A stretch of DNA of 64,000 bases from Sulfuritalea sp. Lineage in GTDB: Bacteria > Pseudomonadota > Gammaproteobacteria > Burkholderiales > Rhodocyclaceae. The DNA lies in assembly GCF_017302275.1 (NCBI RefSeq), contig NZ_JAFLDR010000002.1:1-64000 (forward strand), read 5' to 3'. A program made the position numbers and the translations under genes. Under the pieces are notes generated by a model. The model saw nothing but the letters and a program-made list of their open reading frames with translations, was not told where the DNA came from and searched no databases. This document shows, in pieces, positions 642 through 57,929 of the stretch. The first letter of the stretch is position 1; each line of letters opens with the position of its first letter.

Positions 642-1517
642 CAGCGCCCTGGCTTCGACCACCAGCGCGGCCACCATCGGCGGCTGGGGCTCGCGCGCCA
701 GGGTGACGAGCCCCGTGGCCCAGTCGACCGCCGGTTCGACCAGCTCGATGGCGATCACGCCGCGGGGTGTTCCCACCTGTTCCAGCACCGCGCGCGGCAC
801 GATCGAGGACCAATGGCCCGAACCGACGTGGGCGAGGATGCTGACAATGGAATTGGTCTCCAGCATCGCCGTCACGTCAGCGCCGACTCTTGCAAACACC
901 GCATCGATGGTCTTGCGGTTCTGCATGTCGGGGGTCAGGAGGGCCAGCGGCGCGGTCGCCGCCTCGGCCCAGCTCACCGTCTCGCGCCCGGCGAAGCGTC
1001 CCGCCGCTCCGGTCAGCAACACGTGGCGTTCGTGCCAGATCGGCACCACGTCGAAGCCCGCCGTCGACGCCGACTCGACATAGATAATGCCGGCATCGAT
1101 CTCGAAGCGACGCAGGCGGGCGAGGATCTCGTCAGTCGCCAGCGACAGCACCTCGACCGTGACATGGGCATGGCGCCGCGAGAAGGACGAGGTCAGCGCC
1201 GCCACCACCGTCAGCGCGGTCGGGATCACGCCGAGTCGCAGACGGCCGGTGAGGCCGTCGCGCAGGCTGGCGAGTTCCTGCTTGAGTCCCTCGGCGCTGG
1301 CGGCCATGCGCTGGGCGTACTCGACCACGCTGCGCCCCTCGGGCGTGAGGCCGGCGAACTGCTTGCCGCGCTCGACCACGGCGACACCGAGCTCGGTTTC
1401 GAGGTCGCGGATCGCCGCCGACAGGGTCGAGGGCGAGACATGGCAGGCGGCCGCCGCGCGGCCGAAATGCTTTTCGCGCGCCAGGGCGATCAGGTAGAGG
1501 TATTTGCGGGAGATCAT
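630..1517 (-). CDS. LysR-family transcriptional regulator, C-terminus cut at junction
   Basis: The N-terminal winged helix-turn-helix (residues about 1-60, with HFGRAAAACHVSPSTLSAAI and LGVAVVERG) is a typical LysR DNA-binding domain. A LysR substrate-binding domain follows from about residue 90 (LRLGVIPTAL). About 296 residues are credible, up to ALAETF. The frame then runs on to 462 through sequence that is antisense to the TPR gene, so the last few native residues are replaced. The gene lies downstream of the DUF938 gene on the same strand and may belong to the mtoX operon. Its effector is unknown. One copy of the dispersed 22-bp repeat (869-890) encodes the RVGADVTA segment. Confidence 0.85.
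869..890 (-). repeat. Dispersed 22-bp repeat, copy 1 (in the LysR gene)
   Basis: On the minus strand this matches A(A/G)AGTCGGCGCYGGCG, two bases, ACGG with one change (GACG for GGCG). It encodes RVGADVTA. Confidence 0.6.
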
Positions 1518-1648
1518 TCAACGTGAAGGGGCAATCCGGCAATGGGGAATCTTCGCATCTTTTTGCCCGCTGCTGCCATGTGCCGCGGGCCGACAGGAAG
1601 GCCGTCGGCGGGGCGGGCAAAGCGGATCTCGCCGGGGCTGTCCCGGGC

Positions 1649-2257
1649 TCAAGCCGCCGACATGGCGGCGCGGTGCCAGACCAGGCAGCGATTGTTGGAC
1701 GGCATCGGGCAGTCCGCGATCAGTTTCAGTCCCGCCTGCGCGGCCAAGGCATCCACCGCGTCGAAATCCCGCAACCCCTGCTGGGCACCCCCCTGCTTAA
1801 GCCATGCGTCGAAGGCGGCGTTGCTCTCGCTGGTGTAACGGCCGTCATAGTTGAAGGGGCCGTAAATGACGAGCGTGAAGTCGTCGGCCATAACGCCGGG
1901 CAGGCCGGCAAACAAACGCCCGACCTCGGGCCAGCTCATGATGTGCAGGGTATTGGCGCTGAACACGGCGTCGAAGCGCCCCGCCGGCCAGGCGCCGCCG
2001 ACGTCAAACTTCGTCGCGGCGGGCGTGTTGCCCAGCGCGGCCTCGTCCAGCCAGGCCTGTATCCCCGCAAGGTTCTCCAGCCGATCAGAGGCCTGCCAGA
2101 TCAGGTGGGGCAACTCGGCGGCGAAGAATACCGCGTGCTGCCCGGTCCCGCTGCCGATCTCCAGCACCTTGCGTCGATCGGCGAAATGCCTCTGCAGGAC
2201 GCGGAGGATGGGCTCGCGATTGCGGGCGCACGAGGGAGCATCGGGTTTTTCAGCCAT
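1649..2257 (-). CDS. DUF938-family SAM-dependent methyltransferase
   Basis: The 202-residue protein has the class I methyltransferase motif VLEIGSGTGQHAVFF (residues about 31-45) and an acidic loop ASDRLENL that would bind the ribose of SAM. Overall it matches the DUF938 family, whose substrate is unknown. It starts 32 bases after the MauG-like gene on the same strand and is probably cotranscribed with mtoX, the SCO gene and mauG. A role in sulfur or one-carbon metabolism is only inferred from that position. Confidence 0.8.
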   Translation of the reverse strand: MAEKPDAPSCARNREPILRVLQRHFADRRKVLEIGSGTGQHAVFFAAELPHLIWQASDRLENLAGIQAWLDEAALGNTPAATKFDVGGAWPAGRFDAVFSANTLHIMSWPEVGRLFAGLPGVMADDFTLVIYGPFNYDGRYTSESNAAFDAWLKQGGAQQGLRDFDAVDALAAQAGLKLIADCPMPSNNRCLVWHRAAMSAA

Positions 2258-2289
2258 GAGACCGGTCCGCTGCGACGAGGTCGGCCCGG

Positions 2290-55413: not shown

Positions 55414-55755
55414 TTACAGGTTCTTGAGCGTACCCTTGGGCAGCAGCGCGCCCACGGCGTTTTTCTGCACGGTGATCACCACCGGACCATCCTTGCCTTC
55501 AGCAACTTCCAGGCTCAGGTAGTTTTCGCCGACCTTGGAAATGCGGCCCGTGATGCCGCCCTGGGTAACGACCTCGTCGCCCTTGGCCAGTTCGCTGACC
55601 ATCTTCTGCTGCTCCTTGGCCTTCTTCATCTGCGGCCGGATCATGACGAACCAGAGCACGACGAACATCAGCAGAATGGGCAGCATGCCCATCAAACCGC
55701 CGGTCGGGTCTTGAGCGGCGCCGGCCGCCTGCGCGTAAGCATTTGAAATCAGCAC
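55414..55755 (-). CDS. yajC: Preprotein translocase subunit YajC
   Basis: The 113-residue protein has one membrane helix (about 22-42, LMGMLPILLMFVVLWFVMI) followed by the family sequence RPQMKKAKEQQKMVSEL and GDEVVTQGGITGRI. It associates with SecDF. It lies between tgt and secD on the same strand. Confidence 0.96.
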   Translation of the reverse strand: MLISNAYAQAAGAAQDPTGGLMGMLPILLMFVVLWFVMIRPQMKKAKEQQKMVSELAKGDEVVTQGGITGRISKVGENYLSLEVAEGKDGPVVITVQKNAVGALLPKGTLKNL

Positions 55756-55791
55756 TGTGTATCTCCAGGATTGTCGGACAGAACCGGCGAA

Positions 55792-56904
55792 TTATACCTG
55801 CTCGCCCGCCCGCCCCCGAGTGAAGCGCAGGCGGAAACCGGCGAAGTCGCCCTGTTCGATGGCCGCCCGCATTTCCGCCATCAGCGTCTGGTAGTAGTAC
55901 AAATTGTGGATGGTGTTCAGACGCGCGCCCAGTATCTCGCCGATGCGATGCAGGTGGTGCAGGTAGGCGCGCGTGAAATTGCGGCAGGTATAGCAGCCGC
56001 AGGTCTCGTCCAGCGGCCGGGTATCGTTCTTGTGGCTGGCGTTCTTGATCTTGACGTCGCCATGGCGGGTAAACAGCCAGCCATTGCGCGCGTTGCGCGT
56101 CGGCATCACGCAATCGAACATGTCGATGCCGTGTCCCACGGCATACACCAGGTCTTCCGGCGTGCCCACCCCCATCAGGTAGCGCGGTTTGCCGGAGGGC
56201 AGACGCGGCGCGGCATGGGCCAGGATGCGCGCCATTTCCTCCTTCGGTTCGCCGACCGAAAGGCCGCCGATGGCGAAACCGTCGAAGCCGATATCGACCA
56301 GCGCCGCCAGCGATTCGTCGCGCAGATCCTCATGCATGCCGCCCTGCACGATGCCGAACAGCGCATTGGGGTTTTGCAGGCGATCGTGCTCGTCCCGAGA
56401 GCGCTGCGCCCAGCGCAGGGAAAGGCGCATCGAGGCGGCCGCTGTCGCCAGGTCCGCGGGATACGGCGTGCATTCGTCGAAGATCATCACCACGTCGGAA
56501 TTCAGCACGTGCTGGATACGCATGGACTCCTCCGGCGTCAGGAACAGCCGGTCGCCGTTGATCGGCGACGCGAACTTCACGCCTTCCTCGCTGATCTTGC
56601 GCAGTTCGCCCAGGGAAAACACCTGGAAGCCGCCCGAATCGGTCAGGATCGGCCCGTTCCAGCCCATGAATCGGTGCAGGCCGCCGTGCGCGGCGACCAC
56701 ATCCAGCCCCGGCCGCAACCAGAGGTGGAAGGTATTACCGAGCACGATGGAAGCCCCGATGCCGATCAGTTCCTCGGGCGACATGGCCTTTACCGTGCCA
56801 TAGGTTCCCACCGGCATGAACGTTGGCGTCTGTGCCGCGCCGTGCGCCAGCGTCAGCGTTCCGCGCCGCGCGGTGCCATCAGTGGCGAGCAGATCGAACT
56901 TCAC
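55792..56904 (-). CDS. tgt: Queuine tRNA-ribosyltransferase
   Basis: The 370-residue enzyme exchanges guanine 34 for preQ1 in tRNAs with GUN anticodons. It has [17 protein letters not shown], the nucleophilic Asp region [11 protein letters not shown] and zinc ligands in CGCYTCRNF with a later His. The start is a GTG that overlaps the queA stop (GTGA), so translation is coupled. Confidence 0.96.
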
Positions 56905-57929
56905 GATCCGATCCAGCGATGCAGCAACATGGCATCCCCATAGCTGAAAAAGCGATAGCGGGCGGCGATCGCGTGGCGGTAGGCCACGCGTACCTGCTCG
57001 AGGCCGCCGAAGGCCGACACCAGCATCAACAGCGTGGACTTCGGCAGATGAAAATTGGTGACCAGCAGGTCGGTCACGCGGAATTCGAAGCCGGGCGTGA
57101 CGAACAACGCCGTCTCGCCGGCGCCGACTTTAAGGTTGCCTTCCAGCGCCGCCGATTCCAGAACGCGTACCGACGTCGTGCCAACCGCCACGATGCGGCC
57201 GCCGTTGCGTCGCGTTGCGGCGATCGCGTCGGCCGTCGCCTGCGGCAGCAAATAGCGTTCGGAATGCATTCGATGCGCCGACAGGTCCCTGGTCCGCACC
57301 GGCTGAAAAGTGCCGGCACCGACGTGCAATGTGACCCAGGCGGTGCCGACGCCCATACCGCGCAGCCTTGCCAGCAGTTCGTCGTCGAAATGCAGTCCTG
57401 CGGTCGGCGCCGCGACGGAGCCACTTTCGCGCGCATACACCGTCTGGTAGCGCGTTTCGTCGGGCGCCGCGGCGGCGCGTTCGATGTAGGGCGGCAGCGG
57501 CAGGCGCCCGTAGCGCTCGATCAGTTGCGCGGCGTCGCCGGAAAAACGCAGGCGGTAGAACTCGCCCTCGCGTCCCAGTACCTCGACCTCGATCGCCTCC
57601 TCCAGCCAAAGGCGGCCACCGGGGCGCGGCGACTTGCTGGCGCGCACCTGCGCCAGCGCGACGTTGCCATCGAGCAGGCGTTCCACCAGTACCTCGACCT
57701 GCCCCCCACTTTCCTTGCGGCCGAGCAGGCGCGCGTGCAGCACCCGCGTATCGTTCATAACCAGCAGGTCGCCGGGACGCAGCCATTGCGGCAGGTCGGC
57801 AAACTCGCGATCGACGCAGTCGTCACCGGCGACGACCAGCAAGCGGCTTGCCGACCGCTGCGGCAGGGGCGCCTGGGCCACCAGTTCCGGCGGCAGCAGG
57901 TAGTCGAAATCGGCCAGGGTCAGGGGCAT
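56901..57929 (-). CDS. queA: S-adenosylmethionine:tRNA ribosyltransferase-isomerase
   Basis: QueA (342 residues) adds the epoxycyclopentanediol unit of queuosine from SAM. Family motifs are [38 protein letters not shown] and [16 protein letters not shown]. The ATG at 57929 ([12 protein letters not shown]) agrees with the family better than 57962, which adds eleven residues. The dispersed repeat at 57110-57131 encodes KVGAGETA. Confidence 0.95.
57110..57131 (-). repeat. Dispersed 22-bp repeat, copy 8 (in queA)
   Basis: This is a perfect consensus match with the C variant at the Y position. It encodes KVGAGETA in QueA. Confidence 0.65.

Follow-up and report, generated by a model that had tools for sequence, protein, structure and literature searches.

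Why should nearly the same short stretch of DNA recur in genes of unrelated function, on both strands, within a few tens of kilobases of a bacterial chromosome? The question is raised by positions 1 to 64,000 of contig NZ_JAFLDR010000002.1 of Sulfuritalea sp. (assembly GCF_017302275.1; family Rhodocyclaceae), hereafter the window, for which a preliminary description made from the letters alone had proposed a 22-bp element that inserts a (K/R)VGAxxTA peptide into proteins. The repeat is real and is far larger than the 64-kb window shows, being a motif of about 25 bp with hundreds of copies in this genome. By analogy with the DNA uptake sequences (DUS) of Neisseriaceae and the uptake signal sequences (USS) of Pasteurellaceae, we consider it somewhat probable that through the motif Sulfuritalea-like Rhodocyclaceae recognise their own DNA in uptake.

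The motif in the window and in the genome

Alignment of the copies gave the non-palindromic consensus R-ARAGTCGGCGCYGGCG-NN-ACGGYG, of about 24-26 bp (a unit of about 25 bp), in which two internal positions were seen to vary freely in the sequence logo. The edges were sharp, the flanks of 90 copies from this genome being almost without information past about 26 positions, as were the flanks of 191 copies from other species. The 22 bp first reported do capture a motif, but its true extent is longer.

Across the whole genome (4,409,354 bases on 88 contigs) 746 copies were found at up to two mismatches, 373 on each strand, and the reversed pattern gave no match on either strand at the same threshold; a chance origin of the repeat was rejected on this control. 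In a 464-kb sample of this genome (G000), consisting of the window and 20 stretches of 20 kb, a 24-mer of the motif matched 35, 29, 20, 9 and 7 times at 0, 1, 2, 3 and 4 mismatches, with 0, 0, 0, 1 and 2 matches for the reversed 24-mer. The window alone held 10 pattern matches, compared with a mean of 0.08 and a largest value of 1 in dinucleotide shuffles; two of the 10, at 16936 and 20348, had three mismatches and were left out of the copy count. The DNA was predicted to fold only weakly on the two strands (z of -1.28 and +0.54), and a hairpin of the repetitive extragenic palindromic (REP) or other palindromic type was rejected for lack of a strong fold. The earlier expectation of a dispersed, non-hairpin, DNA-level element with hundreds of copies was thus borne out.

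All eight copies first listed for the window were present, six of them matching every fixed position and two with one mismatch, and a ninth, split copy had been overlooked. Pfam agreed with the genes named for them (TrmD, SecF, QueA, a copper ATPase, a thiamine diphosphate enzyme and a LysR protein), giving a heavy-metal HMA/E1-E2 ATPase for the fourth and a thiamine pyrophosphate (TPP) enzyme for the fifth. The copies are as follows.

867..890, minus strand: copy in a LysR-type regulator gene (Pfam LysR), encoding RVGADVTA; one mismatch
7632..7655, minus strand: intergenic copy, flanked by response-regulator and histidine-kinase genes that converge on it; one mismatch
15850..15873, plus strand: copy close to the 3' end of the gene for a heavy-metal (HMA/E1-E2) ATPase (Pfam), encoding KVGAGDTA
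22755..22778, minus strand: copy inside a TPP-enzyme gene (Pfam), antisense; one mismatch as a 24-mer
23193..23216, plus strand: second copy within that TPP-enzyme gene, in the sense direction, encoding RVGAGATA; one mismatch as a 24-mer
31469..31492, minus strand: copy in trmD (Pfam TrmD), in a variable-length loop, encoding KVGAGATA
53030..53053, minus strand: copy in secF (Pfam SecF), in a length-variable linker, encoding KVGAGVTA
57108..57131, minus strand: copy in queA (Pfam QueA), encoding KVGAGETA
59044..59092, minus strand: composite copy in which a 24-bp insert separates the two halves of the motif; intergenic according to in-house gene calls

As had been noticed, one copy is intergenic (at 7634) and one is antisense (at 22757, within the TPP-enzyme gene); by in-house gene ends the former lies 7 bp past the response-regulator gene and 79 bp ahead of the end of the convergent histidine-kinase gene.

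Maintenance, origin and placement of the copies

Where a V, G, A, P, T, L, R or S residue was conserved and its codons had the same first two bases, the third base was identical in 281 of 321 comparisons inside the motif and in 1437 of 2435 in the flanks; judged by these codons, the motif is held at the level of DNA. The 56 coding copies were read in several frames (sense KVGAGxTA in 28, antisense ASADF in 12, antisense PAPTF in 8, sense ESALA in 5 and others in 3), so that the peptide by which the element had been defined is merely its commonest reading.

The manner in which copies arise was addressed by a gap test modelled on PMC1626085, on a much smaller sample: 56 coding copies were tried and gave five alignments that passed, and seven further proteins were picked by hand. 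Eight of these 12 coding sites were ungapped at the motif in the best alignment to motif-free proteins, namely QueA, MoeA (two sites), DNA polymerase I, ComM, a major facilitator superfamily transporter (a weak alignment) and two more, while gaps of one residue were seen in the LysR protein and in a ferredoxin reductase, of 4 residues in TrmD and of 6 in SecF, the last partly at the motif and partly next to it. No gap of 8 residues, the size of a 24-bp insertion, was found in any of the 12 comparisons. In DNA polymerase I the motif, with two mismatches, codes for the conserved IVSADYS block. Both the insertion of a peptide and a tiny mobile element, as first suggested, are disfavoured because of these ungapped alignments to motif-free proteins, QueA, DNA polymerase I, ComM and MoeA among them. 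The small insertion reported in TrmD relative to E. coli does lie in a loop of variable length, but its four gapped residues are not a motif-sized insertion. At six coding sites, 74 distinct orthologous sequences from the genus comprised 47 that keep the motif, 15 that lose it without an insertion or deletion (indel) and 12 with an indel; the queA copy is kept in 25 of 28 distinct orthologues (at most two mismatches, no indel). On this small sample of alignments the motif arises mostly by substitution, as do DUS and USS.

By in-house gene calls, which were used throughout for placement, 28 of 84 copies were intergenic; outside contig C1 the figure was 27 of 83, compared with 13.9% of non-coding sequence (p=1.7e-5). 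Gaps of less than 1 kb between neighbours numbered 8, against 14.9±3.1 for random placement, and spacing is therefore somewhat even. Adjacent perfect copies shared a strand in 44 of 87 cases (100 perfect copies among the matches listed on C1-C13), strand order being random and without orientation polarity.

Contig C1 was poor in copies, with 1 in the 80 kb sampled when 17.3 were expected (p=5.7e-7) and 3 perfect copies among the matches listed for its 256 kb. Ten open reading frames (ORFs) scanned on it (L151-L154) included those of TraC, TraG/TraD-like proteins, an integrase and a phage tail protein, and C1 is possibly a conjugative element or megaplasmid. On this one contig the motif is depleted in recently acquired DNA; DUS are likewise described as absent from recently acquired genes (PMC2397512), and a DUS dialect has been used to find conjugative elements (PMC7371117). 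C1 also carries a SecA-like gene and an ORF of about 5000 residues.

Distribution and dialects among relatives

Within the genus, 28 of 31 genomes carried 340-746 copies at up to two mismatches, the motif-poor members being G017 (52), G021 (169) and G025 (232); of the loci located through the motif, the ones most like this genome came from Sulfuritalea metagenome-assembled genomes (MAGs; 85% identity over 2293 bp and 82% over 605 bp). A survey of the family (a draw of 297 genomes, at up to three mismatches) gave hundreds of copies in genera g8, g19, g78, g85, g86 and g104 and tens in g10, g23 and g106, with G309 of g19 (8 copies) and G152 of g23 (4 copies) as exceptions within these genera. 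Other genera of the family had at most 40 copies, controls giving up to 28, and none of 386 genomes from other families of the order had more than 7. Some ten genera of a single family thus carry the motif, and in part of them it takes a variant form or 'dialect': AAAGTCAGTCCCGGCG in g10, AAAGTCGACGCTGGCG in g85, a 3' end of ACGGCA in g19 (8 listed copies) and AAACTCGGCGCC in some copies of g86 (5 listed copies).

The signal is eroded in two of the motif-poor congeners, G017 and G025, which had 0 and 2 perfect copies in the 197 and 193 kb sampled, and in which most orthologous sites were degenerate sequence of unchanged length; queA of G025 carried an insert. No new dialect was seen among the 14 commonest 12-mers of the stretches sampled from these two genomes.

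In some motif-poor genera the few copies present were clustered (G124:C50; G125:C66 and C104; G151:C1 at about 1.46-1.50 Mb; G196:C1 at about 1.9-2.0 Mb). Such clusters are probably DNA transferred from motif-rich relatives and resemble the 'peregrine' DUS that PMC3630211 describes. Viral contigs of IMG/VR bore the motif in at least 120 stretches and the reversed pattern in none, and nine proteins scanned from motif-bearing contigs included one terminase and one tail fibre protein. On one viral contig (L055, 883-2216) five copies were seen, the first four 316 bp apart in a tandem repeat, and the same contig bears a tail fibre J-type gene.

A possible uptake label and its alternatives

Sequence-tagged DNA uptake has been described in Neisseriaceae and Pasteurellaceae, and PMC1626085 gives for USS and DUS a strong consensus, copies without orientation bias and spaced somewhat more evenly than at random, a non-coding preference with many coding copies, and origin by substitution. 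We favour the uptake reading because the Rhodocyclaceae motif matches this combination of features. It is alike over-represented on both strands without orientation bias, and alike prefers non-coding DNA with a more even than random spacing; its resemblance to USS extends to the strong asymmetric consensus and the mostly ungapped alignments (PMC1626085) and to phages, which accumulate USS (PMC6776037) as viral contigs carry the motif. The likeness has its bounds. DUS are 10-12 bp long with 2245-4549 copies in the comparison available to us, whereas the motif has about 25 bp and about 750 copies; they belong to another family, and their receptor is of the type of a minor pilin such as ComP, when for the motif a receptor is only presumed. 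Unlike USS, the motif is without informative flanking segments, is GC-rich and has a different sequence, and uptake through it would be by analogy.

Were the motif such a label, a surface receptor, probably a component of a type IV pilus, would bind its roughly 25 bp on free DNA, so that conspecific fragments would preferentially be taken up and then recombined. Motif-bearing alleles would be over-transmitted, and copies would accumulate by mutation and biased uptake until gain equalled decay. All 47 genomes tested for ComEC had it; of 44 genomes, 43 had PilE-like and 40 had FimT-like pilins.

Several observations weigh against an uptake label. ComEC, PilE and FimT homologues were found also in motif-free genera and in the eroded G017. 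At the thresholds used there was neither a PilE nor a FimT match in G114 (genus g85, 98% complete, 222 copies at up to three mismatches), and no FimT match in G039, which has tens of copies. At about 25 bp the core has roughly double the length of those of DUS and USS (9-12 bp). Perfect copies only narrowly exceeded those with a single mismatch (35 to 29 in the 464-kb sample, in a motif that has more mutable positions than a 9-mer), where a large excess of perfect copies is expected of DUS and USS. Close inverted pairs, which are frequent for DUS, were nearly absent (of 66 neighbour gaps, 1 was shorter than 300 bp; at all loci examined, 9 pairs within 300 bp, 3 inverted and 6 direct). Of the 74 orthologous sequences, the 12 with an indel at the motif included 8 in the SecF linker, and L176 (secF), counted among the 15 indel-free losses, has a 21-bp insert by DNA alignment. 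DNA-maintenance genes made up 3 of 46 motif genes (XerD, PolA and ComM/YifB) and 0 of 30 controls, by our own classification and in numbers too small for a verdict.

PilE and FimT may not be the receptor at all, or, in the genomes without matches, they may have diverged too far or have escaped assembly; in G114 the pilins may have been lost, may have diverged, or may be absent from the MAG only. PilE and FimT, the two prepilins of this genome that were profiled, do not track the motif, and a receptor was not identified by phylogenetic profile. Loss of ComEC, PilE or FimT was likewise rejected as the cause of erosion in G017, all three being matched there. The PilE and FimT of this genome (G000:C6:72573-73674) were 65-69% identical to those of the g104 genomes G215 and G133, and 36-58% (PilE) and 31-48% (FimT) identical to those of congeners, as if genera had swapped the pilin cluster, which we offer as a lead only.

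The same pilin results, namely that the genes do not track the motif and were not found in motif-rich G114, suit a site bound by a protein confined to these genera, whether nucleoid-associated, chromosome-organising or active in segregation, as do the somewhat even spacing, the presence on both strands, the conservation of the DNA itself and the scarcity on C1. We regard such a site as improbable, although the best of the alternatives, since the motif has no polarity, and the genus variants, the loss in single species and the copies on phage contigs would be better accommodated by an uptake label. An asymmetric motif of this length with 746 near-perfect copies also lies beyond the sites of this kind familiar to us; we know of no parS, matS or KOPS (FtsK orienting polar sequence) type site as long and abundant.

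A tiny self-inserting mobile element could account for the strong consensus and high copy number, and the length differences at SecF and TrmD and the inserts inside about 10% of copies might be taken for its traces. We nevertheless hold it very unlikely, there being no motif-sized gap in the 12 comparisons with motif-free proteins, a fit to conserved protein residues (in DNA polymerase I, for instance, the IVSADYSQIELR block), two free internal positions and a weak fold. REP and Rickettsia-type palindromic elements are dispersed in and between genes, as the motif is, but it is non-palindromic, lacks an insertion signature and has internal variable positions.

The inserts themselves were of two kinds. 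In the 464-kb sample 10 composites were found in which a 24-bp insert, of consensus CCCACAGGGACTTCCTTCGGT plus repeated CGC, interrupts the motif at one fixed position, with 1-9 mismatches to the composite consensus, when reversed sequences gave nothing below 18. Eight of the 10 were intergenic, and CGC flanked the insert on both sides, like a target duplication. Besides that of the window, composites of this genome lie at the following places.

L165: 11570 and 15943
L158: 8444 and 19867
L166: 8961 and 18257
L156: 2641
L169: 8011
L155: 4133

Looked for by itself (as CCC, 2-6 bases and GGGACTTCCT), the insert turned up at 8 distinct places in the sequence examined from this genome, all within the motif at the same position, and in one composite of G014. 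A sample of 80 kb of G014 contained no composite, although many short matches to one of the 10 composites were seen in that genome. Similar inserts in the opposite orientation lay beside motif halves at L173, L286 and L443 (decayed). A second, different insert of 21 bp (TCCCnnnGGGACGCAGAG) was seen in four other species, directly after the motif's AAAGT, and at two unrelated loci: secF of G014 and G007 (L172 and L176), and the locus of G020 and G005 (L349 and L350). No further site of it was found across the 4.8 Mb examined, and L280 and L283 carried related inserts.

The last alternative, a chi-like or KOPS-like recombination or translocation signal, of which the chi-like form was also guessed at in the preliminary description beside the uptake-like sequence that we favour, has the high chromosomal copy number on its side but is scarcely credible, since neighbouring perfect copies are random in strand and the motif far exceeds the 8 bp or so of such signals.

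Taking the uptake reading further, it is conceivable, though we put it forward tentatively and as short of probable, that environmental Rhodocyclaceae possess a third, independently evolved uptake language, with a core of about 25 bp, genus dialects and stray copies marking transfer between genera, and that the signal has been invaded at one position, in the line leading to this genome, by a 24-bp insert that either parasitises uptake sequences or makes a spaced but still working signal. No report of the motif, or of uptake sequences in these taxa, was found in the literature searched; the string AAAGTCGGCGC was met in five papers, on plants to judge by their titles, and GGGACTTCCTTCGG in none. 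If this is true, self-labelled transformation would be seen to evolve repeatedly, with a third case in environmental Betaproteobacteria, and the family would offer an independent system in which to set molecular drive against selection in the spread of uptake sequences. The motif would then help to trace gene flow among these genera, and discovery of the receptor could be tested in cultured relatives.

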